A program made the position numbers and the translations under genes. Shown here in pieces: positions 14,195 through 46,912 of a DNA stretch of 64,000 nucleotides. Within the stretch, counting starts at the first letter, position 1. Each line of letters begins with the position of its first letter. A model generated the notes under the pieces. It had not been told where the DNA came from and searched no databases. It was given only the letters and a program-made list of their open reading frames with translations. Source of the stretch: Chitinophagaceae bacterium (lineage in GTDB: Bacteria > Bacteroidota > Bacteroidia > Chitinophagales > Chitinophagaceae); NCBI GenBank assembly GCA_014379965.1, contig JACMKU010000090.1:1-64000 (forward strand), written 5' to 3'.

Positions 14195-14830
14195 ATGGCA
14201 TTACGTCTTGGGGATGTTGCTCCCAACTTCAAAGCACAAACTACCTCCGGTGAAATAGACCTGTATGAATACCTTGGAAACGGATGGGGTGTTCTTTTTT
14301 CTCACCCCGCTGACTATACGCCGGTGTGCACGACGGAGCTGGGCAAGACCGCTCTTCTTGGTGAAGAGTTCGCAAAAAGAAATGTAAAGGTCCTTGCTGT
14401 AAGCGTCGACCCGATCGATAAACATGAAGGTTGGGTAAAAGACATCAACGAAACTCAGAACACCACGGTCAATTTTCCTTTGATCGCAGATCCCGACAGG
14501 ACCGTCTCCACATTATACGACATGATCCATCCGAATGCATCCGCTACCGCAACGGTGCGTTCGCTTTTCATAATTGGTCCCGATAAACTGGTCAAGCTCA
14601 TCATCACCTATCCAGCTTCAACCGGGCGAAATTTCCTGGAAGTGATACGCGTGATCGATTCATTGCAATTGACCGCGGGATACAGTGTGGCAACACCAGC
14701 AGATTGGAAGGCCGGTGAAGACGTAATCGTAGTTCCTGCTGTGTCTACCGAAGATGCTATCAAGAAATTTCCAAAGGGAGTAAAAGTGGTTAAGCCTTAC
14801 CTGCGATATACACCGCAGCCCAATCTATGA
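14195..14830 (+). CDS. Peroxiredoxin of the 1-Cys (Prx6) type
   Basis: A 211-residue AhpC/TSA peroxiredoxin. The catalytic motif HPADYTPVCTTELG holds the peroxidatic cysteine, and the long C-terminal domain (AGYSVATPADWKAGEDVIVV) is typical of the Prx6 group. No clear resolving cysteine is seen, in line with a 1-Cys mechanism. It reduces hydroperoxides in the cytosol. It is the first gene after the proposed promoter and overlaps the cysH start by four bases (ATGA). Protecting the oxygen-sensitive Fe-S enzymes downstream would make sense but is inferred. Confidence 0.93.
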   Translation: MALRLGDVAPNFKAQTTSGEIDLYEYLGNGWGVLFSHPADYTPVCTTELGKTALLGEEFAKRNVKVLAVSVDPIDKHEGWVKDINETQNTTVNFPLIADPDRTVSTLYDMIHPNASATATVRSLFIIGPDKLVKLIITYPASTGRNFLEVIRVIDSLQLTAGYSVATPADWKAGEDVIVVPAVSTEDAIKKFPKGVKVVKPYLRYTPQPNL

Positions 14831-15537
14831 TGCTTAGCCCAGATCTCATATCAGAAATAACATCGGCGCCATTGGCCGACGCCATCAGGAAGGTATCCTT
14901 ACTATTTCCAGGTGGAGTGGTGTTCTCGTCCTCGCTTGGACAGGAAGACCAGGTATTGACCGATGTCATTTTTAAGAATAATCTCGATGTGAAGATCTTC
15001 ACGATCGATACGGGTAGGTTGTTTAATGAGACTTACGAACTATTGGATCGTACCACCGCGAGATACAAGCAGCCAGTGCATGTCTTTTTTCCTGAAGCTG
15101 GTGACGTTGAAACTTTCGTCAACACGAAAGGCATCAATAGTTTTTATGAATCGGTTGACAACCGCAAGGAATGCTGCTTCATTAGAAAAGTGAAGCCGCT
15201 TAACAGGGCGCTTACGGGCGCTAAAGTCTGGATCACCGGTCTACGGTCCGATCAGTCGGACAACAGGCAGCAGATGCCGATGATCGAGTGGTCGGAAGAG
15301 AAGCAGTTGTACAAATTTAATCCCCTAATCAACTGGTCGTACGACGAAATGCTTGCATACCTGCATCAGCATAATGTGCCATACAATCGTCTTCATGATA
15401 AGGGATATATCAGTATTGGATGTTCTCCATGTACACGCGCGATCGAGCCGGGCGAAACAGCCAGGGCGGGTCGCTGGTGGTGGGAATCATCGCAGAAGGA
15501 ATGTGGACTGCATACGACCGTAACGATAAAAGGATAG
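14827..15537 (+). CDS. cysH: Assimilatory adenylyl-sulfate (APS) reductase, Fe-S type
   Basis: A 236-residue PAPS/APS reductase-family enzyme that makes sulfite from activated sulfate. The PP-loop region is FPGGVVFSSSLGQEDQVL. Cysteines C116-C117 and C199-C202 (RKECCFIR and GCSPC) are the four [4Fe-4S] ligands that mark APS-using enzymes rather than PAPS-using CysH. The catalytic cysteine is C226 in KECGLH. No APS kinase (cysC) is seen in the locus, which agrees with direct APS use. The start overlaps the peroxiredoxin stop; ATG occurs twice in a row (14827 and 14830). Confidence 0.95.
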   Translation: MMLSPDLISEITSAPLADAIRKVSLLFPGGVVFSSSLGQEDQVLTDVIFKNNLDVKIFTIDTGRLFNETYELLDRTTARYKQPVHVFFPEAGDVETFVNTKGINSFYESVDNRKECCFIRKVKPLNRALTGAKVWITGLRSDQSDNRQQMPMIEWSEEKQLYKFNPLINWSYDEMLAYLHQHNVPYNRLHDKGYISIGCSPCTRAIEPGETARAGRWWWESSQKECGLHTTVTIKG

Positions 15538-15590: not shown

Positions 15591-16499
15591 ATGAGTCAAT
15601 ATCATTTGGATTATCTCGGTGAACTGGAATCAGAGAGCATTCACATCTTCCGGGAAATAGCGGCGCAGTTTGAAAAGCCGGCTCTTCTTTTTAGTGGTGG
15701 AAAGGATTCTATCACGTTGGTTCATCTCGCCCGCAAGGCGTTCGCTCCAGGCAAGATTCCGTTTCCGCTCGTGCATATCGATACGGGTCACAACTTCCCG
15801 GAGGCATTGGAGTTTCGCGACTGGCTTGCTAAGGAAGTGGGTGCAACGCTCATAGTGCGGAAAGTAGAGGACACCATTAAGCAAAGGAATCTCACCGAGC
15901 CGCGGGGGAAATTCGCCAGCCGTAATTGGTTGCAGACTTATACCCTTCTTGATACGATCGAGGAATTCAAGTTCGATGCCTGCATCGGTGGCGCGAGGAG
16001 AGATGAAGAGAAGGCACGCGCGAAGGAGAGGATCTTTTCTGTGCGTGATGAATTCGGACAATGGAATCCGAAGTTACAGCGCCCTGAACTATGGAATATC
16101 TATAATGGTAGAATACAGAAGGGAGAGAATGTAAGAGTATTCCCGATCAGCAATTGGACTGAACTGGATATCTGGAATTATATAAGAAAGGAAAACATTG
16201 GTCTCCCATCGATTTACTTCTCGCACGATCGCCAGGTGATCGAACATGAAGGACAATTGGTGGCAGCGTCAGAGTTCGTACAACTGGACGAAACGGATGT
16301 GATACTCACCAAGAAGGTTAGATATCGAACAGTTGGAGACATGACCTGTACGGCAGCCGTCGAATCAAACGCCTCAACGCTGGATGAAGTCATCAGCGAG
16401 ATCATCTCCACCAAAATCAGCGAGCGCGGCGAAACCCGTATCGATGATAAGGTGACCGAGGCGGCAATGGAGGATAGGAAGAAGAACGGGTATTTCTAA
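15591..16499 (+). CDS. cysD: Sulfate adenylyltransferase subunit 2
   Basis: The small, catalytic subunit of ATP sulfurylase (302 residues, full length). It makes APS from ATP and sulfate, driven by GTP hydrolysis in CysN. The PP-loop is ALLFSGGKDSITLVHLARKA. Other conserved stretches are HIDTGHNFPEALEFRD, GGARRDEEKARAKER and the C-terminal GETRIDDKVTEAAMEDRK. It is paired with cysN as usual, but a 163-base gap filled by a GTGAATG inverted repeat separates them. Confidence 0.97.
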   Translation: MSQYHLDYLGELESESIHIFREIAAQFEKPALLFSGGKDSITLVHLARKAFAPGKIPFPLVHIDTGHNFPEALEFRDWLAKEVGATLIVRKVEDTIKQRNLTEPRGKFASRNWLQTYTLLDTIEEFKFDACIGGARRDEEKARAKERIFSVRDEFGQWNPKLQRPELWNIYNGRIQKGENVRVFPISNWTELDIWNYIRKENIGLPSIYFSHDRQVIEHEGQLVAASEFVQLDETDVILTKKVRYRTVGDMTCTAAVESNASTLDEVISEIISTKISERGETRIDDKVTEAAMEDRKKNGYF

Positions 16500-16502
16500 T
16501 AA

Positions 16503-16625
16503 GTGAATGGTGAATGGTGAATGGTGAATGGTGAATAGTGAATAGTGAGTAGTGAGTGGAACCCGCGAGTCGGATCTGAACTACTCATTCGGAGTCCATT
16601 CACTATTCACCATTGACCACTCACA
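16503..16625. repeat. Inverted repeat, GTGAATG heptads, between cysD and cysN
   Basis: The left arm (16503-16559) is eight heptads drifting from GTGAATG to GTGAGTG. The right arm (16597-16625) is complementary (CATTCACTATTCACCATTGA). The array starts three bases after the cysD stop. The frame of cysN reads back through it by 37 codons, which makes a spurious N-terminal extension. Confidence 0.9.
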
Positions 16626-16662
16626 CGATAATCAACCAATAACAATAAACAGAGATAGAGCC

Positions 16663-17904
16663 ATGGATTTATTACGTTTCATCACAGCCGGTAGCGTCGA
16701 CGACGGCAAGAGCACATTGATCGGGCGGCTATTGTATGATAGCAAGAACATCCTCATCGATCAGATGGAAGCATTGGAGAAATCGACTAAGAATAGAGCC
16801 GATGGTTCCGTCGATCTCGCCCTTCTTACCGACGGCCTACGCGCCGAGCGCGAGCAAGGGATCACCATCGACGTGGCCTATCGCTATTTCACAACTCCAA
16901 AGCGCAAGTTCATCATAGCCGATGCACCTGGACACGTGCAATACACGCGAAACATGATCACGGGGGCCTCGAACGCCAACCTCATCATCGTGCTTATCGA
17001 TGCGCGTCTCGGTGTGGTTGAGCAAACTCGTCGCCACTCGATCATCGCATCGCTGCTCAAGATACCCCACGTAGTTGTTGCAATCAATAAGATGGACCTG
17101 GTGGAATATTCGCAGGATGTCTTTAACAACATTGTCATCGATTACGCCGAGGTAGCCAGGCAATTGGGCCTAAAAGATGTCACCTACATTCCCATTAGTG
17201 CATTGAACGGCGACAATATTGTAGATCGTTCCTCTAACATCGACTGGTACGACGGCAAGCCCTTGCTCGAGTTCCTGGAAGATGTACAAACTGACAGCGA
17301 TATCAACCTTACTGACGCGAGATTCCAGGTTCAATTGGTGATTCGCCCGCAGACGGAAGAACTCCACGACTACCGCGGATATGCAGGCAAAATTCTAAGC
17401 GGTGTTTATAAAAAGGGAGATGCAGTGAAGGTGCTTCCCGCCGGCATTTTCACCACGATCAGCAAGCTCGAGGTGGGGGGCGAAGAAGTAGACGAAGTGT
17501 TTGCCCCGCAGGCGGCCGTTATCCAACTCAGCGATGATATTGATATCAGCCGGGGAGATTCCATCGTGAAGGCGGATGACTCGCCAACTATTGCTAATGA
17601 GATCGAGGTATTGCTTTGCTGGTTAGACGAGAAGCCCCTCCAGGCAGGCAACAAATATTACATCCAGCATAACAGCAGGCTCGTAAGGTCGGTGGTACGT
17701 TCAATCGAATATAAGCTCGATGTGAACAGCCTTCAGCAACAGCAAGTGGAAGGACAGGTGAAATTGAATGAAGTGGTGAGGGCCACTATTAAGACTTCGT
17801 CGCCACTCGTCTATGATTCTTATGCCGACATCAATGTGAATGGAAGTGCAGTACTCATCGACGAGACGAGCAATAGCACAGTGGCCGCCGTACTGTTCCA
17901 ATAA
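16663..17904 (+). CDS. cysN: Sulfate adenylyltransferase subunit 1 (GTPase)
   Basis: The 413-residue GTPase subunit of ATP sulfurylase, related to EF-Tu. G motifs: TAGSVDDGKSTLIGRLLYDS (P-loop), DAPGHVQYTRNM (G3) and NKMDLVEY (G4). Domains 2 and 3 follow. The start is set at the ATG at 16663, giving MDLLRFITAGS, because upstream codons derive from the repeat. There is no fused APS kinase domain, which fits the APS reductase upstream. It lies 25 bases before cobA. Confidence 0.96.
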   Translation: MDLLRFITAGSVDDGKSTLIGRLLYDSKNILIDQMEALEKSTKNRADGSVDLALLTDGLRAEREQGITIDVAYRYFTTPKRKFIIADAPGHVQYTRNMITGASNANLIIVLIDARLGVVEQTRRHSIIASLLKIPHVVVAINKMDLVEYSQDVFNNIVIDYAEVARQLGLKDVTYIPISALNGDNIVDRSSNIDWYDGKPLLEFLEDVQTDSDINLTDARFQVQLVIRPQTEELHDYRGYAGKILSGVYKKGDAVKVLPAGIFTTISKLEVGGEEVDEVFAPQAAVIQLSDDIDISRGDSIVKADDSPTIANEIEVLLCWLDEKPLQAGNKYYIQHNSRLVRSVVRSIEYKLDVNSLQQQQVEGQVKLNEVVRATIKTSSPLVYDSYADINVNGSAVLIDETSNSTVAAVLFQ

Positions 17905-17929
17905 TTTTTTCGTTGCATTAATAAATGAT

Positions 17930-18727
17930 ATGATCGATAGTAAACCAAATGTGATACTTGCTGGCGCGGGCCCCGGTGATCCGGATCTCATCACGCTGAA
18001 GCTGCAGAAGCGCCTCGCCGTGGCAGATGTGATCATAGCCGACCGCCTGGTCAACCCACTGATCGTGGAAACCCATGCTCGAAAGGATGCGGAGATCATT
18101 CTTGCAGGGAAGCAGGGCTATAATGATGCTTCGATCAGCCAGCAGGAAATTTCAACGATGATCGTGGAGCATGCACTCGCCGGCAAAACAGTCCTTCGCC
18201 TCAAGGGCGGCGATGTTGCTTTCTTCAGCAACGTGCTCGACGAGTTGCAGGTACTGTCTCAGCACAATCTTTCCTTCGAGATCATTCCCGGCATTACCGC
18301 CGCCTCAGGCGCCTCGGCTTATGCCGGTATTCCTCTAACGGCCAGAGGTTTTTCGCAGGCGGTTCAATTCATCACGTTCAATCCAACAAATTTCTATAGC
18401 TCGGAAAAATGGAAAAGTCTTTCATCAACATCTGATACGCTGGTCTTCTACATGGCGGCTAAGAACATCGAGGACCTTGCGGAATTGTTGCTACGGTATT
18501 CCAGGAAACCCCTTACGCCTATGGCCGTGATAGAGCAGGCGACGACACAACACCAGAAGGTACATGTAACCACCTTAAAGGATTGCAGCGTTGACTTCGC
18601 TGGAAAGCAATTTAGCTCCCCTTCACTCATCATCGTGGGCGAGGTGGTTAGGCTTCACCACGACTTTAATTGGTTCCAGGCGGATAAGGCAGGATCAGTA
18701 TTCACCGAATTAATTAATGGCAAATGA
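17930..18727 (+). CDS. cobA: Uroporphyrinogen-III C-methyltransferase
   Basis: SUMT, about 265 residues, adds two SAM-derived methyl groups to uroporphyrinogen III to give precorrin-2. The N-terminal VILAGAGPGDPDLITLK and the later VLRLKGGDVAF and PGITAASGASAYAGIPLT are the family signatures. It is a stand-alone methyltransferase domain; the dehydrogenase/chelatase part of siroheme synthase is encoded at 25984. The ATG at 17930 gives the standard start, although the frame is open 30 codons further upstream inside cysN. It is followed after six bases by cysJ. Confidence 0.95.
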   Translation: MIDSKPNVILAGAGPGDPDLITLKLQKRLAVADVIIADRLVNPLIVETHARKDAEIILAGKQGYNDASISQQEISTMIVEHALAGKTVLRLKGGDVAFFSNVLDELQVLSQHNLSFEIIPGITAASGASAYAGIPLTARGFSQAVQFITFNPTNFYSSEKWKSLSSTSDTLVFYMAAKNIEDLAELLLRYSRKPLTPMAVIEQATTQHQKVHVTTLKDCSVDFAGKQFSSPSLIIVGEVVRLHHDFNWFQADKAGSVFTELINGK

Positions 18728-18733
18728 TCTCTC

Positions 18734-20443
18734 ATGATTGGTGAAACAAGACTAAAACAACTACACGCGTTAATCGAAGGCTATTCTCAGGAAGAGCTGA
18801 TATGGATCAATGGATACCTCTCTGGCATCGTTGCAAAGAGCCAGAATGGTAACGGGCATACGAATGGAGCTGAAGTAAAAGCGACAAGCACAAAGAAGAT
18901 CAGTCTTGTGTTTGGCACGGAGACAGGCAATGCACAGCGGCTCGCCACTCAATTGGCCGCCGTAGCCAAGAAGAAGGGAGTTAATGCAAAGCTCGCCGAC
19001 CTCAGTCAATATCGGTTCAGCGATCTCGCACGCGAAGAATATTTTTTTATCGTTATCAGTACACAAGGCGAAGGGGAGCCCCCGATCCCTGCTAAGAAGT
19101 TTTACGATTATATTCATGAAAACGAGCTTTCTCTCGGGCACCTGAAGTTTGGCGTTCTCGCTCTCGGTGACAGTTCCTACCCCATGTTCTGCAAGACCGG
19201 CGAGGATGTAGACGCTCGCTTCGAGAAGCTTGGTGCTTCGAGAGTAGTTCCGCTGCAGAGATGCGACGTCGACTACGAGAGTGATGCCGCGACGTGGTTT
19301 GAAAAAGTGCTTGCATCGGCCGCACAGCAAGAGTCCGCACCGTCCCCCGTTGTGAAAACGGAACCGGCAAAGAAGACGGGTAAGAAGATTTATCATGGAA
19401 CTATACTCGCGAACATCAACCTTAATGACCGCGGCTCAAATAAATCAACTTACCATATAGAGATCGGAACAGATGAACCTATCTCTTATGAACCGGGCGA
19501 CACGATAGGAATTATTCCGCGCAACAGGGAAGACGTGGTCGACAAGATCATAAGTCTAACCGGAATCGATTCATCATTAGAAATCGCTACTTCGAAGGCC
19601 ACTTCCACCGTGAGGGAGTTGCTCGCACAACACCTCAACATTTGTTATCTCCTTACCAGCACGATCAAGAAATACGCTACGATCATCCAGCAGGAAATCC
19701 CTGATACCAGGATGGACCTTGTCGATCTTCTTCGAATCTTTCCAGTAAAGGATGCGACGCAATTCGAAGAGGTAGTAAAAATCTTGATGCCCATTGCCCC
19801 AAGGCTTTATTCGGTGGCTTCGTCTCCGGCTGCCCATGGTGAAAACGAAGTCCATATCACTGTGGCACGGGATCGCTTCCTTGCGCAGGACGAACAACGT
19901 TATGGACTCTGTAGCGAATTCCTAGGTGACCAGCCAGTCAATTCTGCCATTCATTTTTACGTGCATAAGGACAAACATTTTAAACTTCCATCAGCTGAGA
20001 AAGATGTGATCATGATAGGCCCCGGTACAGGTGTTGCACCATTCCGATCTTTCCTCGCGGAGCGTGATGCCACGGGTGCGAATGGTAGAAACTGGTTCTT
20101 CTTCGGTGAGCAACATTTCATATCCGATTTTCTTTACCAGACCGAGATACAGCGTTTTCACCAGATGGGTGTGCTTAACAAGCTAAACCTGGCTTTCTCG
20201 CGCGACCAGGCTGAGAAGATCTATGTGCAGCATCGCATGCTAGAAAACAGTGCGGAGTTGTTTCAATGGATAGATAAAGGCGCGTCGGTATTCATCAGTG
20301 GAACAAAGGACCCCATGAGCAAGGATGTAGAGGATACGTTATTACAAATTATCAGTGTCGAGGGTAAGAGATCTCCGGAAGAAGCAAAGCAGTACCTGGA
20401 TCAAATGAAGAAGGGGGGGAGGTATGAGAAGGACGTTTATTGA
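18734..20443 (+). CDS. cysJ: Sulfite reductase flavoprotein, CysJ-like
   Basis: A 569-residue diflavin reductase. Order: a short N-terminal helix region, a flavodoxin-like FMN domain (about 55-195; VFGTETGNAQRLA, STQGEGEPP, LALGDSSYPMFC), then a FAD-binding domain with connecting insert (about 220-410; RLYSVASSP for FAD), then the NADPH domain (GPGTGVAPFRSFLAER, FFFGEQH, and a C-terminal aromatic Tyr). It passes electrons from NADPH to CysI. After its stop codon a 140-base GAGGCGG array separates it from cysI. Confidence 0.95.
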   Translation: MIGETRLKQLHALIEGYSQEELIWINGYLSGIVAKSQNGNGHTNGAEVKATSTKKISLVFGTETGNAQRLATQLAAVAKKKGVNAKLADLSQYRFSDLAREEYFFIVISTQGEGEPPIPAKKFYDYIHENELSLGHLKFGVLALGDSSYPMFCKTGEDVDARFEKLGASRVVPLQRCDVDYESDAATWFEKVLASAAQQESAPSPVVKTEPAKKTGKKIYHGTILANINLNDRGSNKSTYHIEIGTDEPISYEPGDTIGIIPRNREDVVDKIISLTGIDSSLEIATSKATSTVRELLAQHLNICYLLTSTIKKYATIIQQEIPDTRMDLVDLLRIFPVKDATQFEEVVKILMPIAPRLYSVASSPAAHGENEVHITVARDRFLAQDEQRYGLCSEFLGDQPVNSAIHFYVHKDKHFKLPSAEKDVIMIGPGTGVAPFRSFLAERDATGANGRNWFFFGEQHFISDFLYQTEIQRFHQMGVLNKLNLAFSRDQAEKIYVQHRMLENSAELFQWIDKGASVFISGTKDPMSKDVEDTLLQIISVEGKRSPEEAKQYLDQMKKGGRYEKDVY

Positions 20444-20634: not shown

Positions 20635-22299
20635 ATGACTGAAAAAAATAATTTATCACCCGTAGAACGCATCAAGACATCGAGTGATGGTCTTCGGGGC
20701 ACTCTGAAAGAGAGTCTCAAGGATGATATCACTGGTGCCCTGCATGAAGACGACCAGTCCTTAATCAAGTTTCACGGATTATACCAGCAGGACGATCGGG
20801 ATCGTCGCGAGGAGCGTACCGCGAAGAAATTGGAATGGTTGTATTCATATATGATCCGGTTACGCCTGCCTGGTGGATTTCTCACACCCGAGCAATGGAT
20901 TGGATTGCATCATATCGCAGGTGAGCATTCGACAGGTACGATCAAGATCACCACCCGTCAAACCGTTCAACTACACGGCATCATCAAGTCGGACATAAAG
21001 CCAACGATACAGTCGTTTAATACACTACACCTGGATTCGATAGCGGCCTGCGGCGATGTAAACCGTAATGTGACATGCAGCGCTCATCCTAACGAATCGC
21101 CATTGCATGCAGAGGTATTTAGTTACGCGGGGAAAATAAGCCAGTTGGCCCTTCCTAAAACACGCGCATATTATGATATCTGGCTGGATGAGGAGCAGAT
21201 CGCGGAGAAGAGCGAGGAAGATCCACTGTACCAGGATCGTTATCTGCCAAGAAAATTCAAGATTGGACTAGTCATTCCTCCTAATAACGACGTGGATGTA
21301 TTGACGAATGATGTCGGACTTATCGCCATCATCGAGAACAATGAACTGAAAGGATTCAACATAGCAGCGGGTGGTGGACTGAGCGCCACTCATGGAAATC
21401 CCAGCACGTATCCCCGTCTCGCGACGATCCTTGGTTTCGTTTCCGGCGAGGCTAATGTGTTGAAAGCCGTCTACGAGATCATGACGATTCAACGTGACAA
21501 CGGGAATCGGAGCGACAGGAAGCTGGCTCGCCTGAAGTATACGATTGACAGGATGGGCATCCCTGGATTCAAAGCTGAACTGGAAAAGAGATGCGGATTC
21601 AAGTTGGAGGCGCCGAGGGCCTATGCTTTCACTGAGAGGAAAGATCACTATGGCTGGGGGCAGAGCAGTAGTGGCAATTGGCATTACACAGTGTTCGTAG
21701 AGAATGGTCGCGTGCTCGACGATAAGAAGGTGCCGTTGAAGACGGGCCTGCTCGAGATCGCTAAGACCGGTAAGATCAATTTCCGTTTTACAGGTAACCA
21801 GAATGTAATCCTGAGTGATATCAGTCCTTCGAATAAAGAAGAGATTGAGATACTGCTGAACAAGTTTGGCATCAATGCGCATACTGATTCCGCGGGTGTC
21901 TTGAGGAAAAATGCGATTGCATGTGTTGCCTTCAATACCTGCCCGCTCGCACTCGCGGAGGCACAACGGTACTTGCCAACGCTCATCGATAAGATTGAAC
22001 CCATTCTTTCGAAGTATTCCTTGGATAAAGACGAGATCACATTGCGAATGACGGGTTGCCCGAATGGATGCGGCCGTTCACCAGCTGCGGAAATTGGATT
22101 GATAGGAACTGCATATGGTCAATATAACCTTCATATTGGTGGAGACAGGGTAGGGGAGCGACTTAATATTAAATACAGGGATAGCCTGGGAGAGGATCAG
22201 ATACTACAGGAACTGGACTCACTGTTTGGTTCGTATAGTCGAGATAAGAATACGGATGAGACTTTCGGCGATTTTGTTATCAGGCAAAAAATAGTATAG
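20635..22299 (+). CDS. cysI: Sulfite reductase hemoprotein (siroheme/4Fe-4S)
   Basis: A 554-residue assimilatory sulfite reductase that reduces sulfite to sulfide with six electrons. The repeated ferredoxin-like and siroheme-binding folds are recognisable (STGTIKITTRQTVQLHGI, AACGDVNRNVTCS). The cluster ligands are CVAFNTC (C-x5-C) and GCPNGCGRS (C-x3-C), the last being the axial bridge between the 4Fe-4S cluster and siroheme. It is directly followed by the aminolevulinate synthase gene with no gap, so the siroheme enzyme and its cofactor pathway share a transcript. Confidence 0.96.
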   Translation: MTEKNNLSPVERIKTSSDGLRGTLKESLKDDITGALHEDDQSLIKFHGLYQQDDRDRREERTAKKLEWLYSYMIRLRLPGGFLTPEQWIGLHHIAGEHSTGTIKITTRQTVQLHGIIKSDIKPTIQSFNTLHLDSIAACGDVNRNVTCSAHPNESPLHAEVFSYAGKISQLALPKTRAYYDIWLDEEQIAEKSEEDPLYQDRYLPRKFKIGLVIPPNNDVDVLTNDVGLIAIIENNELKGFNIAAGGGLSATHGNPSTYPRLATILGFVSGEANVLKAVYEIMTIQRDNGNRSDRKLARLKYTIDRMGIPGFKAELEKRCGFKLEAPRAYAFTERKDHYGWGQSSSGNWHYTVFVENGRVLDDKKVPLKTGLLEIAKTGKINFRFTGNQNVILSDISPSNKEEIEILLNKFGINAHTDSAGVLRKNAIACVAFNTCPLALAEAQRYLPTLIDKIEPILSKYSLDKDEITLRMTGCPNGCGRSPAAEIGLIGTAYGQYNLHIGGDRVGERLNIKYRDSLGEDQILQELDSLFGSYSRDKNTDETFGDFVIRQKIV

Positions 22300-23565
22300 A
22301 TGTTTTTGTACGATCAATATTTTGAGCAGAAGTTACAGCAGTTAAGGGATAACGGCTCCTACAGGTATTTCCTGGAGGTGAACAAGAGTGCGCAGCACTT
22401 TCCTTCATTTTACTATACTAATGATGAAGGAATACAAAGATCAGCGGTCAATTGGTGTAGCAATGATTACCTCTGCATGAGCACTAGGGAAGAGGTCATT
22501 GCAAAACTTGGATTCGTCACTCATCGTAGCGGGACGGCAAGCAGTGGAACAAGAAACATTTCTGGAACGACGATTCACCATAAGGAACTTGAACGTACGC
22601 TGGCGAACTGGCATGGTAAAGAAGCAGCGTTGCTCTTCAATGGGGCCTACCAGGCAAATGTGACTACGCTACAGACATTGGGAAGGCAAATACCCGATCT
22701 GATCTTCATCTCGGATGCCCGCAACCATGCTTCGATCATTGAAGGCATAAGAGCCGCAGGCAATGAGAAAAGAATTTTCAGGCATAATGACCCGGCGCAC
22801 CTGGAAGAGATTCTACAGTCGCTGGAACCGGGACGTCCTAGACTAGTGGTGTTCGAATCGGTCTATTCCATATCTGGAACGATCGCTCCGGTGAAGAAGA
22901 TACTTGAGATCGCTAAATTATACAACGCTCTCACCTACGTAGATGAAGTGCATGCAGTGGGACTGTATGGTGAAAACGGCGCTGGCCTTTTCGAGCAGGA
23001 GGGAATCCAGGATGGGATCGACATATTGAATGGTACACTATCGAAAGCGATAGGCGTTTTCGGTGGATATATTGCAGCAAAGTCAACTATCATTGACTTC
23101 ATCAGGAGTTATGGCAGTGGGTTCATCTTTACGACGTCACTACCACCCGCAGTATGTAGTGCGGCTAACAAGAGCATACAACTCATCAGGCAGAATCCTG
23201 TGTGGAGACAAGACCTACACAGGAATGTGAACCTGTTGCGCGACGGGCTCAGGCAAAACGGTGTCGTGTTCACTCATAATGAGTCGCACATTACCAGTGT
23301 ACCTGTTGGCGATGCTACACGATGCAGGCAGGTAGCTAATGACCTGCTTCATCAGCAGGGAATTTATTTGCAGCCAATCAATCATCCCACTGTACCAAAA
23401 GGGGAAGAGTGTTTGCGGATCATCATCACGGCGAGTCACCAATTAAAACATATTAATCACCTGGCATTTAGCCTTGGGAAGATATTAAATGGAAAAAATC
23501 AGGATCATAGGACGGAATTCCCGGCTTTCGCTTCTGCAGTTGGAAATAGTGCAACGGAAGATTGA
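22300..23565 (+). CDS. hemA: 5-aminolevulinate synthase (Shemin/C4 pathway)
   Basis: A PLP enzyme (421 residues) of the alpha-oxoamine synthase family. Motifs single out true ALAS rather than biotin or threonine-pathway relatives: WCSNDYLCM, SGTRNISGTT, GKEAALLFNGAY, NHASIIEGIRAAG, KRIFRHND, FESVYSISG, YVDEVHAVGLYG, GTLSKAIGVFGGY (PLP lysine K249) and, near the end, YLQPINHPTVPKG. It condenses glycine and succinyl-CoA to 5-aminolevulinate. ALAS is classically alphaproteobacterial and mitochondrial, while Bacteroidota usually make ALA from glutamyl-tRNA. It starts at the base after the cysI stop and overlaps hemC/D by 77 bases. Confidence 0.95.
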   Translation: MFLYDQYFEQKLQQLRDNGSYRYFLEVNKSAQHFPSFYYTNDEGIQRSAVNWCSNDYLCMSTREEVIAKLGFVTHRSGTASSGTRNISGTTIHHKELERTLANWHGKEAALLFNGAYQANVTTLQTLGRQIPDLIFISDARNHASIIEGIRAAGNEKRIFRHNDPAHLEEILQSLEPGRPRLVVFESVYSISGTIAPVKKILEIAKLYNALTYVDEVHAVGLYGENGAGLFEQEGIQDGIDILNGTLSKAIGVFGGYIAAKSTIIDFIRSYGSGFIFTTSLPPAVCSAANKSIQLIRQNPVWRQDLHRNVNLLRDGLRQNGVVFTHNESHITSVPVGDATRCRQVANDLLHQQGIYLQPINHPTVPKGEECLRIIITASHQLKHINHLAFSLGKILNGKNQDHRTEFPAFASAVGNSATED

Positions 23566-25012
23566 AGCGGCATATCCCGGAATGGAAGTTGAAGTCATCG
23601 CGCGTAGCAGTCGTGGTGATACCAACCGTGATGTGCCCCTGCATACCCTGGAGGGAAGTGATTTTTTCACGGAGGAAATATTCGAATCGTTATCAACAGG
23701 GGAGGCAGACATAGCGGTCCATTCATTGAAAGACATGAGCAGCGCACATTTTTTCGGCTCAAATACTTTCGCCGTCGTCGATCGCGATGATGCACGGGAT
23801 ATTGCCATCTTCCGGTCAAATGCGAAAGAAAAGATCAAGAATGGAGATAAGTTGATTATCGGTACGTGCTCACCGAGAAGGGAAGAGATGGCGATTGGGT
23901 TTTTACAAAAGGCCCTTCCGCAGGATAATAATTTTATAATAACAACGAAAAGCATACGCGGAAACGTGGATACCCGGTTGAGGAAGCTTGACGAAGGTGA
24001 GTATGATGGTATTATTCTCGCCACCGCCGGCCTGAATCGATTGTTGAGAAGCGATGCCGACGCGGCGACAATTAGAAGCCTGTTGCACGATAAACTCTTA
24101 ATGCTACTTCCTCTGATCGAGTGTGTGCCGGCGCCATGCCAGGGCGCCATCGTAGCCGAAGCAATACCATCAAATGAAATAGCAATTATGGTGCTCAATG
24201 CAATCAATGAGGCAAAACTGGAGAAGGATTGCATTGATGAAAAGAAAACTGCCTCGCGCTATGGAGCAGGTTGTATCCAACGATTTGGTGTGACGAGTCT
24301 TAATTATGGCGCAAATCGCTCGGTATATGCGGCAGGCACCAATGAAGTGGGAGAATCATTCAGTCACTGGTCGGGATTACCATCGCTTGACTTCGGCAAT
24401 AAGAATCTTTTCACGAGTACCGAATACATGGGGAAGTTCTTCGACTATGAATTCCAGGACGATCATTCCTCCATCGAAGAATCCATCGTCTATGTGGCAA
24501 ATTATAAAGCCATCAGGAGAGCAGGCCTATTGGACCAACTCAGGAGTAAGAAAGTTTGGGCAGCGGGTACGAAGACGTGGTTTGAATTGGCGAAGAAGGG
24601 GATATGGGTCGAAGGTTGCGCCGATGCATTTGGATTGGAATCGTTGGTTCAACCCTGGAGTATGCCATTGTTCAACATAAACAGGGAAAATGTTGCTTTG
24701 ATCACGAACACGCAATCTGTACATGGTTGGGCGACGAAGGGGTGGAAGGTGTATGGCACTTATGACTTTATTGAAAAACAATCACCGGAAATTGTCGGCA
24801 TGATCAGGAATGCCGATGTCTTGTTCTGGACAAGCTTTCGCCAGTATGAACAATATAAAGACCAGATAAAAGAGAATGCAATTCATGCCTGTCCTTATGG
24901 AGAGACGGCTGAGCTGCTTCGGGCGGCAGGAATTGAGCCGGTAGTATTTCCAAACATCAAAGCCTTTCAGCAATGGAGACAAATTTCTTCCCGCTCACGC
25001 AGCGTCGCCTGA
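23489..25012 (+). CDS. hemCD: Porphobilinogen deaminase / uroporphyrinogen-III synthase fusion
   Basis: A 507-residue bifunctional protein. Residues 4 to about 310 are HemC: IIGRNSRLSLLQ, DIAVHSLKDM (catalytic Asp82), GTCSPRRE (Arg130/131), SIRGNVDTRLRKLDEG, and the dipyrromethane-cofactor cysteine C262 in GAGCIQRFG. Residues about 333-500 look like HemD: KKVWAAGTKTWFELAKKGI and ADVLFWTSFRQYEQY, followed by HACPYGETAELLRAAGIEP. Together they would convert porphobilinogen to uroporphyrinogen III. The HemD part is divergent and rests on fold-level motifs. Overlaps with both neighbours (77 and 40 bases) suggest translational coupling. Confidence 0.88.
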   Translation: MEKIRIIGRNSRLSLLQLEIVQRKIEAAYPGMEVEVIARSSRGDTNRDVPLHTLEGSDFFTEEIFESLSTGEADIAVHSLKDMSSAHFFGSNTFAVVDRDDARDIAIFRSNAKEKIKNGDKLIIGTCSPRREEMAIGFLQKALPQDNNFIITTKSIRGNVDTRLRKLDEGEYDGIILATAGLNRLLRSDADAATIRSLLHDKLLMLLPLIECVPAPCQGAIVAEAIPSNEIAIMVLNAINEAKLEKDCIDEKKTASRYGAGCIQRFGVTSLNYGANRSVYAAGTNEVGESFSHWSGLPSLDFGNKNLFTSTEYMGKFFDYEFQDDHSSIEESIVYVANYKAIRRAGLLDQLRSKKVWAAGTKTWFELAKKGIWVEGCADAFGLESLVQPWSMPLFNINRENVALITNTQSVHGWATKGWKVYGTYDFIEKQSPEIVGMIRNADVLFWTSFRQYEQYKDQIKENAIHACPYGETAELLRAAGIEPVVFPNIKAFQQWRQISSRSRSVA

Positions 25013-25968
25013 GAACGGGTTCCCAGATTCGGGAACTGACCGCCTCCGTTAAGCTCTCTTACAAGAGCTTTATACAACCACTATTCGTGGATGAGGCCAT
25101 TGATTCACCAAGAAAGATAGATGGCCTGAATGGTGTAGAGGCAGATACGATCGATTCGTTGTTGTATCGTATTGAGCAGGATGCCAGGAATGGAGTTAAC
25201 AAGTTTCTGCTGTTCCCGGTGCCTGCACGAAAGAAGGAAAGTGATTTTGATTTCTCTTTTGCGCAAAAGGCACTCACGAGGATCAAACAGTCCTTCGGCA
25301 ATGATGTCTGGATTGCCGCGGATGTGTGCCTTTGTAGTTACACCACTCACGGTCATTGTGGGATCCTCAACGAGGACCACTCGAGATTGCTTAATAGTAG
25401 GTCGGTGGAAGTGCTGAGTCACTACGCGGCGACGCTCGCCAACGCGGGGGCGGATTGCATTGCACCGAGCGATATGATGGATGGACGAATCGGGGCGATC
25501 AGGAGCAAGCTCGATGCACTCGGTTTTGAGGAGGTAAGCATTATGAGCTATGCAGCAAAGTTCAGTTCGCAATTTTACGGTCCATTCCGGGACGCTTGTC
25601 ATTCCTCTCCTAATACGAATGGTTTACAGAACCGCAAGACCTACCAGGTTTCACCATTCAATAGCAACGATGCAATTGCCAGCGCTTTGAGGGATGAGAG
25701 AGAAGGAGCAGACATTCTCATGGTAAAGCCGGCAACGCTATATACGGATATTATTTCCCGGCTTAATCAACAAACATTGAAACCCATTGCAGCCTATCAT
25801 GTCAGTGGTGAGTATGCTGGCGTGGAAGCGCTAGCAGAGAAGGGCTTGCTGGACCGCGAGGCTGCACACATCGAGGTGTGGGCTTCACTCCAACGCAGCG
25901 GCGCGGACATAATTATTTCCTATGCCTCACGGCATGCGAAGGATTGGATCAATAACGTAGTTATTTAA
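24973..25968 (+). CDS. hemB: Porphobilinogen synthase (ALA dehydratase)
   Basis: HemB, 331 residues, joins two ALA molecules into porphobilinogen. The Schiff-base lysines are K196 (SYAAKFSSQFYGPFRDA) and K252 (MVKPATLY). The metal site DVCLCSYTTHGHCG carries three cysteines (119, 121, 129), the zinc-dependent type. The start at 24973 lies 40 bases inside hemCD. The gap to the next gene is 15 bases. In Bacteroidota hemB usually sits away from sulfur genes, so this copy may be dedicated to siroheme. Confidence 0.95.
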   Translation: METNFFPLTQRRLRTGSQIRELTASVKLSYKSFIQPLFVDEAIDSPRKIDGLNGVEADTIDSLLYRIEQDARNGVNKFLLFPVPARKKESDFDFSFAQKALTRIKQSFGNDVWIAADVCLCSYTTHGHCGILNEDHSRLLNSRSVEVLSHYAATLANAGADCIAPSDMMDGRIGAIRSKLDALGFEEVSIMSYAAKFSSQFYGPFRDACHSSPNTNGLQNRKTYQVSPFNSNDAIASALRDEREGADILMVKPATLYTDIISRLNQQTLKPIAAYHVSGEYAGVEALAEKGLLDREAAHIEVWASLQRSGADIIISYASRHAKDWINNVVI

Positions 25969-25983
25969 AGACAACATCAACTA

Positions 25984-27501
25984 ATGGATAGCAATACGGA
26001 TAATACAATAGCATCGGCGAACGGTTCGGTAGAAATGAAGAACCGGTTGTACCCGGTTTTCCTAAAACTGGATCAGCTGAACATCCTATTGGTAGGCGCA
26101 GGAAATGTGGGCTTGGAAAAATTGCATTCACTCTTATCGAATTCACCGGAGGCAAAGATCATTGTGGTCGCACCTGAGATCAGGGACGAAGTGAGGCGTT
26201 TAGTTTTTAAACATCCATCCTGCCAGTTGGTGCAAAGAAGATTCCAGGCCTCTGACCTGGAGGATAAACAACTCATCATCCTTGCGAGTGATGACAAGGG
26301 ACTACATGAAAACATCAAGGCGCAGGCGAAAGAGTTAGGTATTCTGGTAAATGTGGCCGATACTCCCGATCTCTGTGATTTTTATCTTGGAAGCATTGTA
26401 CAGAAAGGAAATCTGAAGATTGCCATTTCCACTAATGGAAAGTCACCAACCGTCGCGAAGAGGATTCGTGAAGTATTGCACGAGGCATTACCTGGCGAAC
26501 TGGATGACGTGATTGAGAACCTGCACAAAGTGCGCAACAAGCTCAACGGTAACTTCGATTCCAAAGTAAAAAGGCTCAATGATATCACCAAGGTGTTGGT
26601 TGAGAAGGATAATGTTTCCGGTGAGCAGCGTTGGAGAAAGATCGCGAGCTATTCATTGATAGGATTTGGACTTATGCTTATCGGGCATTTTATTTTTTCC
26701 TACCTCCCATTGAATCAGATGGCGAGTGATGCGAAGACCTGGTATAGTACACTTGACAGCAATTTTCATTGGTTTGTACTCGCGGGTTTCCTTGCACAGA
26801 TGGTAGATGGGGCTACGAGCATGGGATACGGGGTTACGAGCGCAATTGTGTTGATGTCAGCAAATGTCAGCCCTGCCGCGATAAGCGGAAGCATCCATAC
26901 TGCCGAGATGTTTGCCAGCGGCGCCTCTGGCTATAGCCATTATAAATTCGGTAACGTAAATAAAAAGATGTTTAAGGCTCTCCTCATCCCTGGTGTGATC
27001 GGTGCAGTGCTCGGCGCCATCCTTCTCGTAAAGTTCGGAGAGACGCACATACGCTATATCCGTCCCATCATGGCGGCATACACCCTGATACTAGGGATTA
27101 AAATATTCATCTCCGCCTTCCGCTCCATGACTGCCAAGAAGAAATTCAAGCGGTACGGATTGCTGGCGGGATTCGGCGGCTTCCTCGATTCATTCGGCGG
27201 CGGTGGTTGGGGACCGATCGTTACTTCCACACTCATTACAAAGGGTCGAACGCCTAAATACGTGGTAGGATCAGTAAGTCTTACCGAGTTCTTCGTGACA
27301 CTTGCGAGCGCCTTTACCTTCTTTACTCTCATCGGTGTTCAGCATTGGCAGGTCATCCTCGCACTAGTTATCGGCGGCCTCGTAGCCGCACCGATGGCCG
27401 CCAAGTTGAATGGAAAGTTGCCCCGCAAAGCATCATTCATATTATTAGGAGTGATAGTGGTGGCGTGGAGTATTCGCATACTAGTGAAGACCCTTGGATA
27501 A
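25984..27501 (+). CDS. Siroheme synthase (Met8-type) fused to TauE/SafE permease
   Basis: A 505-residue two-part protein. Residues about 20-210 are precorrin-2 dehydrogenase/ferrochelatase: YPVFLKLDQLNILLVGAGNV (NAD-binding), VNVADTPDLCDFYLGSI (catalytic Asp126 region) and AISTNGKSPTVAKRIRE. From about 217 onward is a TSUP (TauE/SafE) membrane domain with roughly eight helices (first about 220-241), carrying QMVDGATSMGYGV and GFLDSFGGGGWGPI, the two repeat signatures. The first part oxidises precorrin-2 and inserts iron to finish siroheme. The second may move sulfite or sulfate. The frame is continuous, with no sign of a frameshift. It ends the run and an inverted repeat follows. Confidence 0.93.
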   Translation: MDSNTDNTIASANGSVEMKNRLYPVFLKLDQLNILLVGAGNVGLEKLHSLLSNSPEAKIIVVAPEIRDEVRRLVFKHPSCQLVQRRFQASDLEDKQLIILASDDKGLHENIKAQAKELGILVNVADTPDLCDFYLGSIVQKGNLKIAISTNGKSPTVAKRIREVLHEALPGELDDVIENLHKVRNKLNGNFDSKVKRLNDITKVLVEKDNVSGEQRWRKIASYSLIGFGLMLIGHFIFSYLPLNQMASDAKTWYSTLDSNFHWFVLAGFLAQMVDGATSMGYGVTSAIVLMSANVSPAAISGSIHTAEMFASGASGYSHYKFGNVNKKMFKALLIPGVIGAVLGAILLVKFGETHIRYIRPIMAAYTLILGIKIFISAFRSMTAKKKFKRYGLLAGFGGFLDSFGGGGWGPIVTSTLITKGRTPKYVVGSVSLTEFFVTLASAFTFFTLIGVQHWQVILALVIGGLVAAPMAAKLNGKLPRKASFILLGVIVVAWSIRILVKTLG

Positions 27502-27510
27502 TTGCTCGCA

Positions 27511-27866: not shown

Positions 27867-30800
27867 ATGAAAAAGTTATTTCTCTTCGCAACGCTTCTCA
27901 CATGTATCTTAAAAGGCCTAAATGCCCAGGACAATACGATCATTGAGATATCGGGTCGAATTACTGACCGTGAGAGGCAACAACCTCTTCCTGATGTCAG
28001 CGTGCAGGTGAAAGGCGGCTCTTCGGGTACGGTTACTAATTCAGAGGGTAATTTCGTTTTGCGGACGAAATCCAAACTGCCTTTTACATTAGTAGTTAGT
28101 TCAATCGGTTTCGAGGCCCAGGAGTTAGAGGTCAGAAGTCTTGGTTCAAACTTACAGATCGCACTTGTCACCCAGACTGTTCTTGGGAGTGATGTAGTGG
28201 TAACTGCAAGCAGGGTGCAAGAGAGTTTATTAAAATCTCCAGTGGCGATCGATAAACTCGACATCCGTTCATTCAAGGAAACGCCGGCAGCTTCCTTCTA
28301 CGATGCCTTAGGCAACGTGAAAGGTCTCCAGTTGACGACTTCTTCCATAACATTCAAAGTTCCGAATACGCGCGGGTTCAATATCCCAAATAACTTCCGC
28401 TTCATGCAACTGGTTGATGGCATCGACATGCAGGCGGCAACATTAGGTGTTCCTCTGGGAAATGCGATCGGTCCGACAGAGCTCGATATTCAAAGCATTG
28501 AAGTCACCCCGGGCGCCGCTTCCGCTCTATATGGAATGAATGCAATCAATGGGATGGCAAATCTGCTTACACGCAGTCCATGGACACACCAGGGACTTAG
28601 TTTCTTCCAACGTACAGGTGTCAATCACGTGGATGGAAAGGACCATGATCCAAGTATTCTAACCGAGACTGCTATTCGCTATGCCCATTCATTTAAGGAT
28701 AAATTCGCTTTCAAGGTCAACGCGAGTTACCTGCGCGCCATAGATTGGATCTCCAATACGAGGATCGATCAGAATCCGAATAATAGAAATACGGCTAACC
28801 CCAGTTATACCGCCCTAGACGGCGTCAACAATGCCGCCTTCGATGGGTGGAACAAATATGGAGATGACGCGCTCCAGTTAAGCAACACTGTATCGGTGAC
28901 TGGTCTTACCATCGACGGAATAACCAACAGGACGCTTACGGTTGCGCGTACGGGATACTGGGAGAAAGACCTTGTAGATCCGAAAGTAGATAACCTGAAG
29001 TTCGATGCTGCATTGCATTATAAATTCAATCCTAATCTTGAAGTCTCCTATACTTATCGAATCGGGAAGATGGATGGTGTATTCCAGCGGGGTAATAAAG
29101 TGAAACTGGATAATGTCATAGTACAAAACCACCAGGTGGAATTGAAGGGAAAGTCATTTACTGTGAAAGCTTATGTATCACAGGAGAATTCAGGTGATTC
29201 ATACAACGTGAAGCCATTGGCCGACAATCTCGACCTGTATACTGGTGGAAGCGCGAATGCCTGGAATGCGAAGTACAAGACAGCACTGAATGCTTATGCC
29301 ACGGCCAACGGCGGATCACTCACTTCAGCTAACCTGGCAGCGGCGACCGCCTATGCACGTCAACAGGCAGACGCAAGCAGGGTAGAACCCGGTACGACGC
29401 GATTCAACATCGTGAAGGATTCTATCAGGAAGATCAACAACTGGGACATACGGTCTTCAAGCATCCCGAATGCCCCGATCACCGGAGGCGCAGCGTTGGT
29501 TCAAAAAAGTAATCTATATCATGTCGAGGGACAATGGAATCTCAGTGACAAAGTGAAAGTATTCGACCTCCTTGTCGGTGCTGACTTCAGGGTATATGAA
29601 TTGATTCCGGACGGTAATAATTTCGTTGACTTCACGCGACCCATTGCTGATCGTAATACAGAACTCAAGGACGGAAGCTTTGGTGATAATACCTATTACA
29701 AGAAAGTCGGCGGGTTTGCACAGGTCGCGAAGAAGCTGTTTGATGACAAATTGAAATTAACAGGATCGTTAAGGGCCGACTACAACCCCGAATTCAGTGC
29801 GAAGCTAACACCCAGGTTAGCGGCTGTCTACACCCTTCAGCAAAAACATAATTTTCGTCTCACGTTCCAACAGGGATTCCGATTCCCCGCGTTGTTCGAA
29901 GCGCTATCTTATGTGAACAACGGTCGAGTGAAGCGTGTAGGCATCCTGCCAGTTATCAACGAGGGACTGGGCTTCCGCGAAAACAGCTACACCCAGCCTT
30001 CGGTCGCGGCATTCAACGCTGCCGTCAGGGCCGGAGGAAACTCCGATTCAGCTGCCCTCGCAAACAGGAGTTTGCTAAAGGTTGCCAATCTCCCGGACGG
30101 CCGCCCCGAAGGAATCAACTCCTTTGAGATCGGTTATAAGAGTGTTGTGTTGGACAATAAAGTATTCTTCGACTTTGATGCATACATCAATATCTACGAC
30201 GGCTTCCTTGGCCAGGTACAGGTATATGTTCCGAAAGATGAGATCGTAGGATCGGATGCTGCGGTGATCTCGATGATCGATAGGAACAGGGACGCCACCA
30301 ACGCAAGTGGTGGGAATGCCGCTAGCAAAGGACAAGATCGGTATCGTGTGTACACCAACGCGCGTAATAAGTACACCAGTTACGGTTCCTCGCTCGGCAT
30401 TACTTATAATTTTTATAAGACCTTCACCATATCGGGTAACCTCAACTACAACGGGATCAAAGGAAATGAGACACCGGATCTATTCGTGACAGGTTTCAAT
30501 ACACCTGAATGGACATCTAACCTGTCGTTCGGCAATCGTGCTATCACGAAGAATATCGGATTCAATATCGTTTGGAAATGGCAGGATACGTTCCTGTGGG
30601 AAAGTCCACTCGTAACGGGAGCGGTAGCGGCTATCCATAATATCGATGCACAGGTCACCTTTCGTGTACCATCGGCCAAGTCAACAATCAAGCTAGGCGG
30701 CACCAATATTTTAAATAACCGTCATATCCAGTACGCAGGGGGTCCAACCATTGGCGCGTTGTATTATGCGGCGATTACGTTGGAGGGGCTGACAAGGTGA
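27867..30800 (+). CDS. TonB-dependent outer-membrane receptor
   Basis: A 977-residue receptor. A signal peptide (residues 1-20, ending LNAQ) is followed by a carboxypeptidase-regulatory-like domain (about 27-105; ISGRITDRERQQPLPDVSVQV). A TonB box region (VVVTASRVQ) precedes the plug (about 120-230; NTRGFNIPNNFRFMQLVDGI, then GAASALYGMNAINGMANL) and a 22-strand barrel. There is no SusD-like partner, so it is probably a stand-alone importer. The cargo is unknown. The promoter and candidate operator are shared with the cys operon, which suggests a sulfur compound (sulfonate, sulfate ester or thiol) rather than a glycan. Inference only. Confidence 0.9.
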   Translation: MKKLFLFATLLTCILKGLNAQDNTIIEISGRITDRERQQPLPDVSVQVKGGSSGTVTNSEGNFVLRTKSKLPFTLVVSSIGFEAQELEVRSLGSNLQIALVTQTVLGSDVVVTASRVQESLLKSPVAIDKLDIRSFKETPAASFYDALGNVKGLQLTTSSITFKVPNTRGFNIPNNFRFMQLVDGIDMQAATLGVPLGNAIGPTELDIQSIEVTPGAASALYGMNAINGMANLLTRSPWTHQGLSFFQRTGVNHVDGKDHDPSILTETAIRYAHSFKDKFAFKVNASYLRAIDWISNTRIDQNPNNRNTANPSYTALDGVNNAAFDGWNKYGDDALQLSNTVSVTGLTIDGITNRTLTVARTGYWEKDLVDPKVDNLKFDAALHYKFNPNLEVSYTYRIGKMDGVFQRGNKVKLDNVIVQNHQVELKGKSFTVKAYVSQENSGDSYNVKPLADNLDLYTGGSANAWNAKYKTALNAYATANGGSLTSANLAAATAYARQQADASRVEPGTTRFNIVKDSIRKINNWDIRSSSIPNAPITGGAALVQKSNLYHVEGQWNLSDKVKVFDLLVGADFRVYELIPDGNNFVDFTRPIADRNTELKDGSFGDNTYYKKVGGFAQVAKKLFDDKLKLTGSLRADYNPEFSAKLTPRLAAVYTLQQKHNFRLTFQQGFRFPALFEALSYVNNGRVKRVGILPVINEGLGFRENSYTQPSVAAFNAAVRAGGNSDSAALANRSLLKVANLPDGRPEGINSFEIGYKSVVLDNKVFFDFDAYINIYDGFLGQVQVYVPKDEIVGSDAAVISMIDRNRDATNASGGNAASKGQDRYRVYTNARNKYTSYGSSLGITYNFYKTFTISGNLNYNGIKGNETPDLFVTGFNTPEWTSNLSFGNRAITKNIGFNIVWKWQDTFLWESPLVTGAVAAIHNIDAQVTFRVPSAKSTIKLGGTNILNNRHIQYAGGPTIGALYYAAITLEGLTR

Positions 30801-30802
30801 TG

Positions 30803-30923
30803 TGAGTGGTCAGTGGTCAATAGTGAGTGGACGGCGCGAGATCGATCAAACATTTCCATTCACAGACTCTACTCACCATTGACCACTCACTACTCACTGC
30901 GACTCACCGCTGACAACTCACAT
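30803..30923. repeat. Inverted repeat, GTGAGTG/GTCAGTG heptads
   Basis: The left arm (30803-30832) begins two bases after the TonB receptor stop; the right arm (about 30869-30923) is longer. The inner edge is GACGGCGCGA as in the element at 27511. It ends six bases before a TATTTTTG box. Confidence 0.88.
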
Positions 30924-30928
30924 CTCCC

Positions 30929-30936
30929 TATTTTTG
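30929..30936 (+). promoter_or_regulatory. -7 box TATTTTTG before the DUF2490 gene
   Basis: An exact TAnnTTTG match 5 bases before the ATG at 30942. No TTTG lies 19-20 bases upstream; that position is inside the repeat. Confidence 0.4.
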
Positions 30937-30941
30937 CTTCT

Positions 30942-31697
30942 ATGACTAACCTTTCAATTCGTATCGCCTTCATCTTCCTGCTTTGCTTCAATTTTGTTGT
31001 AAACGCGCAGGTCAAACATACTGAGTCAGTGCAGCAGGTATGGGTGGCCTATTTCAACCAGACGCGGTTTAGCGATAAATGGGGAGGCTGGGCGGATATT
31101 CATCTTAGAACGAAGGAGGATTTCTTTACTAATTTTTCACAGTCAATTGTTCGCCTTGGGTTGACGTATTATCTCACCGACGATGCCAAGATCACTGCCG
31201 GCTACGCATATGTAAATCATTTTCCCGCGGATGCTCATAAAAATATCTCGCAGCCGGAGCATCGCACGTGGCAACAGTTTCAATGGCATAACAAGTATCC
31301 ACGGGTGCGAGTGATGCAATGGTTCAGGCTGGAGGAACGCTGGCGCCGAAAGATCCTCGACGATGATAATCTGGCAGAAGGATATAATTTCAGCTTCCGG
31401 CTACGGTATAATTTCTTCTCCCAGTTCGCACTCAATAAGAAAAGATTCGCGCCAAAGACGCTTTCGTTTGTAGTGAATGATGAGGTGCATGTCAACTTCG
31501 GAAAGCAAATCGTCAACAATTATTTTGATCAAAATCGATTTTTCCTTGGATTCAACTACCATATAAATGCAAATAACAACCTGCAATTTGGATACATGAA
31601 CGTGTTTCAACAATTAGCTGCCGGCAACCGGTATCGAAGTACGCATGTGGCACGAGTGTTCTATGCGCAGAGTTTTGATTTAAGGAAAAAACATTAG
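30942..31697 (+). CDS. DUF2490 outer-membrane protein
   Basis: About 251 residues with a signal peptide (residues 1-22, ending FVVNAQ) and a beta-rich body. Alternating aromatic strands such as QQVWVAYFNQTRFSDKWGGW, LTYYLTDDAKITAGYAYV and RLRYNFFSQFAL are the DUF2490 pattern, and the protein is likely a small outer-membrane barrel. The function is unknown. The frame is open a further 43 codons upstream through the inverted repeat, but the ATG at 30942 precedes a proper signal peptide. It may be co-regulated with the TonB receptor upstream, although a repeat lies between them. Confidence 0.82.
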   Translation: MTNLSIRIAFIFLLCFNFVVNAQVKHTESVQQVWVAYFNQTRFSDKWGGWADIHLRTKEDFFTNFSQSIVRLGLTYYLTDDAKITAGYAYVNHFPADAHKNISQPEHRTWQQFQWHNKYPRVRVMQWFRLEERWRRKILDDDNLAEGYNFSFRLRYNFFSQFALNKKRFAPKTLSFVVNDEVHVNFGKQIVNNYFDQNRFFLGFNYHINANNNLQFGYMNVFQQLAAGNRYRSTHVARVFYAQSFDLRKKH

Positions 31698-46851: not shown

Positions 46852-46912
46852 GATGGCAAAGATAATAGGATGCGGCCCAGCTTCCACGCGGGAGTTAGTG
46901 GTTGACGAAGTT

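Follow-up and report, generated by a model that had tools for sequence, protein, structure and literature searches.

Why a siroheme synthase and a membrane carrier should be encoded as a single protein, and what that carrier moves, are the questions raised by a gene at 25984..27501 (+ strand) of the 64,000 nt stretch of DNA analyzed here (the window). The gene begins with ATG, encodes 505 amino acids and contains no internal stops. Pfam searches of the product gave matches above cut-off to NAD_binding_7 at residues 25-137 (PF13241, 89 bits, E 3e-25), Sirohm_synth_M at residues 142-163 (PF14824, 37 bits, E 1.9e-9) and TauE at residues 265-498 (PF01925, 112.6 bits against a gathering cut-off of 32.6, E 3e-32), and the NCBIfam model TIGR01470 (cysG_Nterm) matched the N-terminal half, also above cut-off (126 bits). 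The reading given in the initial annotation, a Met8-like domain and a TSUP domain sharing one frame of 505 codons, is confirmed by the ORF and by the matches to both collections.

The window belongs to a draft genome (about 90% complete), and the join could in principle stem from an error in sequencing or assembly, or be a recent chance event that has no function; a missed stop or frameshift had been suspected at 26610-26640 (residues 209-219). This junction is open in every intact relative. Once identical sequences were removed, the fused ORFs numbered at least 119, of which five have a decayed Met8 domain; the others, at least 114 distinct uninterrupted ORFs, have an intact one and come from several orders, and from isolates as well as metagenome assemblies. 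When the linker (residues 171-214) was compared with those of five close relatives, the proportion of differences was 0.11–0.18 at codon position 1, 0.09–0.23 at position 2 and 0.50–0.66 at position 3, i.e., third positions change at three to five times the rate of the other two. Because of this third-position excess the junction is judged to evolve as coding DNA, with the linker under purifying selection. A missed stop as the cause of the fusion is ruled out by the codon pattern together with the uninterrupted relatives, and the chance that the join is artefactual or accidental is negligible.

The Met8-TSUP fusion is genuine and occurs widely in Bacteroidota, the phylum that has most of the intact fusions. 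A scan using one genome per species returned, in the best 80 loci among the matches listed, examples from Chitinophagaceae, Hymenobacter, Rufibacter, Pontibacter, Saprospiraceae, Pedobacter and Flavobacterium; the matches listed also included single metagenome-assembled cases labeled Ignavibacteria and Thermoanaerobaculia, which may be misbinned. Five genomes of the same genus (G001, G002, G003, G004 and G006) have the uninterrupted fusion, with 53–81% identity to the window protein, and across the 59 related genomes covered by a two-domain search most family members with a full-length fusion protein keep the frame uninterrupted. Separate encoding of the two domains in all close relatives, the outcome that would have refuted the earlier reading, was not what was found: every same-genus genome with either domain has both as a fusion. 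Descent of both halves together from one ancient fusion is not supported, as Met8 and TSUP distances correlate with an r of 0.43, the Met8 domain of G003 is 60% identical to that of the window and its TSUP domain 46%, and both domain trees (quick trees, with SH-aLRT support only) contain several changes between fused and separate states. Stand-alone Met8 ORFs (n = 23) and stand-alone TSUP ORFs (n = 21) were collected from selected loci, and these numbers are not frequencies. In G146, G439 and locus L115 the two domains are encoded by adjacent separate genes, an intermediate arrangement in which a single stop codon change would create or remove the fusion. A literature search, with subscription papers and database annotations outside its scope, found no description of a Met8-TSUP fusion; the fusion must surely be present in sequence databases, and automatic annotation very likely lists the domain pair already.

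The enzyme half is a Met8/CysG-B-like siroheme synthase domain at residues 20-206 (26041..26601, +), with a Rossmann fold, a dimerization strand region and a helical tail. In the alignment with CysG, the catalytic Asp104 corresponds to Asp126 (26359..26361, +) and Pro133 to Pro155 (26446..26448, +), both of which are retained in 114/114 intact fusions, as are the GxG loop, the NVAD-type motif containing the Asp, and the STNGKSP loop. In CysG, a D104A change abolishes both activities, and Pro133 forms a platform under the tetrapyrrole (PMC7018833). Thr150 of the fusion aligns with CysG Ser128 (the aligned CysG chain is the S128A variant), a point of difference between the two proteins. The predicted model of residues 20-207 matches CysG best (Z 19.3 over 185 residues), followed by SirC (Z 16.5) and Met8p (Z 15.7). 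The yeast Met8p and the precorrin-2 dehydrogenase SirC share fold and residues with this half but are soluble, unfused proteins. CysG of Salmonella and E. coli has the same module with its catalytic Asp and Pro, likewise joined to a pathway partner. The Met8 and TSUP parts are both known families, and what differs from CysG is the partner: a methyltransferase in CysG, and a presumed sulfate permease in the window protein, where the uroporphyrinogen-III methyltransferase (SUMT) is a separate gene. Among the 59 relatives, genomes with an intact fusion have exactly one strong PF13241 match each, the fused one, and their other PF13241 matches are weak Rossmann hits of less than 45 bits. As the sole strong Met8, with its catalytic Asp kept, the fused domain very probably supplies the siroheme in these genomes.

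The carrier half begins with an additional N-terminal transmembrane helix in the models (about residues 218-240; 26635..26703, +), which precedes the TSUP core and is also found in stand-alone TSUPs of the same clade. The core itself (residues 261-504; 26764..27495, +), delimited by the Pfam TauE match, repeat comparison, models and fold searches, consists of two repeats, each with a broken helix and three transmembrane helices. The earlier description of an eight-helix domain holds for the core, while the additional helix raises the modeled total to nine. Comparison of repeat 1 with repeat 2 gave a probability of 94 and an E of 1.3e-7, indicating an internal duplication, and each repeat has a conserved motif: DGATSMGYG at residues 275-283 (26806..26832, +), identified from conserved columns, and DSFGGGGWGP at residues 402-411 (27187..27216, +), nearly invariant in 85 TSUPs. 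The membrane part modeled alone reached a pLDDT of 87.7 and a pTM of 0.81, while the model of the full fusion had a pTM of 0.51 and no confident contact between the two halves. Charge suggests a Met8 half inside the cell, with the most basic loop (residues 380-390) on the same side; the repeats would then have opposite orientations.

No solved structure related by sequence to the TSUP half was found in the PDB. The predicted fold of the core has a single clear structural neighbor, the undecaprenyl-pyrophosphate phosphatase BacA/UppP (Z 11.9, rmsd 4.2 over 235 residues; the next unrelated match has Z 5.1). BacA/UppP is an enzyme with about 10% identity to the core, and a likeness of fold does not show a common function; in Pfam the membrane part matched TauE alone, with no match to the BacA family. 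If correct, the resemblance would connect a family of transporters with a lipid phosphatase. To our knowledge there is no firm substrate code for TSUP carriers. TauE/SafE and other TSUP proteins (PF01925) share the Pfam family and the duplicated repeat architecture with the window protein. TauE is described as a sulfite/sulfonate exporter of sulfonate breakdown, whereas the clade of the window protein has the extra N-terminal helix and is linked to sulfate activation.

This link is apparent in the gene order of the window, in which the fusion lies in an assimilatory sulfate reduction cluster, with all genes on the + strand. First in order come cysH (APS/PAPS reductase, 14827..15537; named from sequence, with homologues recurring in the clusters of relatives), cysD (small subunit of sulfate adenylyltransferase, 15591..16499; TIGR02039) and cysN (its GTPase subunit, 16552..17904). 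The SUMT gene follows (17840..18727), and this gene and cysN were named from sequence and neighbor conservation; the SUMT product, precorrin-2, is the substrate of Met8. Next come cysJ (sulfite reductase flavoprotein, 18734..20443; TIGR01931) and cysI (siroheme subunit, 20635..22299; TIGR02041 and PRK13504 above cut-off). Three haem biosynthesis genes then precede the fusion: 5-aminolevulinate (ALA) synthase of the Shemin route (22300..23565; TIGR01821 above cut-off), hemC with a weak HemD-like C-terminal half (23489..25012; TIGR00212 above cut-off, HEM4 below cut-off at E 0.0012) and hemB (porphobilinogen synthase, 24973..25968), the only HemB found in the genome. Downstream are genes for a TonB-dependent outer-membrane receptor (27867..30800) and a DUF2490 outer-membrane protein (30813..31697). 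In the 48 fusion loci from named genomes with at least 17 kb of sequence, cys genes are always present (48/48), and a gene of the sulfite/nitrite reductase family occurs in 47. The expected co-occurrence of the fusion with cysI was borne out, cysI being its nearest known upstream gene in 29/48.

With respect to the transported substrate, the initial annotation had offered two choices, a sulfate importer or a safety valve for toxic sulfite. Sulfate import is most likely, judging from gene content and context. A sample of the phylum comprised 392 genomes, 51 of which have the TSUP clade of the window among the matches listed, as 24 intact fusions, two adjacent split pairs, two decayed fusions and 23 stand-alone genes. 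The sulfate activation gene cysD is present in 50 of these 51 (49 above the curated cut-off) compared with 104 of the 341 others, an association (Fisher p 2e-20) that is inflated by kinship. No NIR_SIR proteins were found in seven of the 51. Six of the seven (G069, G150, G330, G334, G359 and G376) have the TSUP and cysD and lack both a siroheme reductase and an intact Met8, so the carrier must serve something besides sulfite reductase; the seventh, G127, has an intact fusion and lacks both cysD and a siroheme reductase. Across the sample, TSUP is thus seen to track sulfate activation and Met8 to track siroheme enzymes. The fusion of G127 (L201:8672-10156), an orphan that adjoins an integrase, is an exception and speaks against this reading.

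As a sulfite exporter, the TSUP half would act as a valve whenever CysH outruns CysI or siroheme runs short, and fusion to the siroheme maker would match the valve to reductase capacity. The Pfam name, the export function of some characterized TSUPs (TauE) and the fact that the fused gene most often adjoins cysI all fit such a role. However, stand-alone TSUPs of the clade, and those with a decayed partner, adjoin cysH-cysD-cysN, including in genomes without siroheme reductases, where expelling freshly made sulfite would be senseless unless sulfite is otherwise used. This retention beside cysH-cysD-cysN, and the tracking of cysD, weaken the valve, as does the importer-like behavior of CysZ, functionally the nearest precedent from a cys operon. 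Reductase-free genomes could still need a valve, but overall we consider sulfite export unlikely. Any use of sulfite in the six reductase-free genomes might be for sulfonolipid synthesis, which is a possibility; sulfonolipids are known in Chryseobacterium gleum (PMC11211663). A connection to capnine through the gene beside the decayed fusion of G334 (L164, 6244-7455) was examined and dropped, the gene being a glycine C-acetyltransferase (TIGR01822, 675 bits).

The CysZ precedent comes from another phylum. A cysZ mutant of C. glutamicum did not grow on sulfate below 5 mM and recovered above 30 mM (PMC1266029), and Corynebacterium CysZ, which has been classed in TSUP (PMC5840216), is likely a sulfate permease for high-affinity uptake. 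The mutant also failed on sulfite (PMC1266029), so the substrate range may be broader. In that species cysZ follows the chelatase-like cysY in the operon cysIXHDNYZ (PMC1266029), so a siroheme chelatase and a TSUP permease are paired there too, as neighbors. CysZ and the window carrier are thus likened by family and operon context, both being TSUP proteins of assimilatory cys operons next to a siroheme-type chelatase gene or domain; CysZ differs in being a separate gene with CysY as its partner, while the window carrier is fused to Met8.

The remark that no other sulfate permease is visible holds within the locus, but elsewhere in the genome there is one SulP gene. It is the only SulP found in the window genome and lies beside genes for carbonic anhydrase, DabA and a DabB-like protein (L202:1-6710, contig C56), and because this row is a setting for inorganic carbon uptake, it suggests that the SulP carries bicarbonate. 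In the window genome, at its draft completeness of about 90%, searches found neither a sulfate ABC permease nor a carrier of the DASS family. In G003, a same-genus genome with a completeness of about 100%, the fusion is present and SulP is not. Nearly all genomes of the sample do have SulP, as do most relatives, including the six without sulfite reductase. The absence of another sulfate permease was for this reason set aside as a general argument; it applies fully to G003 alone and partly to the window genome.

In five ORFs an intact TSUP follows a Met8 domain that has lost both the catalytic Asp and the Ser/Thr loop (L037:8118-9479, L039:9386-10807, L041:9187-10437, L163:7564-8865 and L164:7511-8839), and where measured their TSUP parts are 56–69% identical to that of the window. 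On the TSUP tree these decayed forms have at least four separate origins even when only starred branches are trusted, each among intact fusions. Siroheme reductase is absent from three of the genomes concerned (G334, G376 and, as judged by the CysI model alone, G025), and two have another intact Met8, either a stand-alone gene beside cysI (G022) or a second intact fusion (G028). By this pattern the enzyme half appears to decay where siroheme synthesis is redundant or unused, with the carrier half kept. Loss of Met8 with retention of TSUP indicates two separable functions, and such separable fates argue that the halves are joined mainly for co-expression.

The earlier proposal that the fusion places the siroheme maker at the site of sulfite entry or exit finds no support in these results. 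Since CysH generates sulfite within the cell, and each half can be separated, recombined or lost to decay without the other, simple co-expression accounts for the fusion equally well. A different kind of coupling would be a gate, in which binding of NAD(H), precorrin-2, sirohydrochlorin or siroheme by the Met8 half regulates sulfate entry. A conserved helical linker joins the Met8 domain to the first TSUP helix, and the N-terminal domain of the five ORFs has decayed rather than being cleanly deleted, which could mean a non-catalytic role. Nevertheless, the decayed domains retain no conserved site in common and their lengths run from 150 residues down to a short remnant, as expected under decay, many functional stand-alone TSUPs exist, and the full-length model (pTM 0.51) contains no confident contact between the halves. 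Gating is accordingly rated as quite improbable. Similarly improbable is the broader idea of a built-in sensor, in which an active or decayed Met8 half would tune sulfate import to the status of siroheme synthesis; if true, this would keep sulfate from activation to toxic sulfite until the cofactor of sulfite reductase is available.

The preferred explanation is that the fusion is a two-function component of the assimilatory sulfate reduction operon, and that its halves are joined because both would be needed in step during sulfate assimilation. The cytoplasmic N-terminal half would be the only precorrin-2 dehydrogenase/sirohydrochlorin ferrochelatase of the cell, feeding siroheme to the neighboring CysI, and the C-terminal half a secondary carrier importing the sulfate used by CysDN-CysH; the join would provide equal amounts of both from one message, and nothing found points to channeling. 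We hold this account, taken as a whole, to be reasonably probable. We know of no tested candidate for the sulfate importer of most Bacteroidota. The fusion ties one TSUP clade to sulfate activation and predicts sulfate import by that clade, a prediction that tractable species of Chitinophaga, Flavobacterium and Hymenobacter make accessible to study, and the decayed enzyme halves are natural knock-outs that offer a clean genetic handle. It also provides a likely function for many proteins now named 'sulfite exporter TauE/SafE'.

Other features of the locus were also recorded. The genes for the TonB receptor and DUF2490 protein (27867-31697) repeatedly accompany the fusion or stand-alone TSUP genes, a receptor homologue (at least 40% identity) being present in 26 of the 48 fusion loci and the DUF2490 gene in 14, and their products may bring a sulfur compound across the outer membrane. 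The genes for ALA synthase, HemC and HemB (22300-25968) sit inside the cys operon and look like a self-contained Shemin-route pathway to siroheme. Neither glutamyl-tRNA reductase nor a further HemB was found in the window genome, G001, G002, G004 or G006, and neither glutamyl-tRNA reductase nor HemB was found in G005; perhaps the hosts of these Shemin genes are haem auxotrophs. A promoter scan gave matches no better than those in shuffled sequence. Many tandem repeats lie between genes, at 16503-16559, 20444-20579, 27510-27539, 46912-47136, 54803-54856 and 59123-59209; their periods are 7 or multiples of 7, and their units differ (GTGAATG, GAGGCGGGAGACTG, AGACGGT and others).
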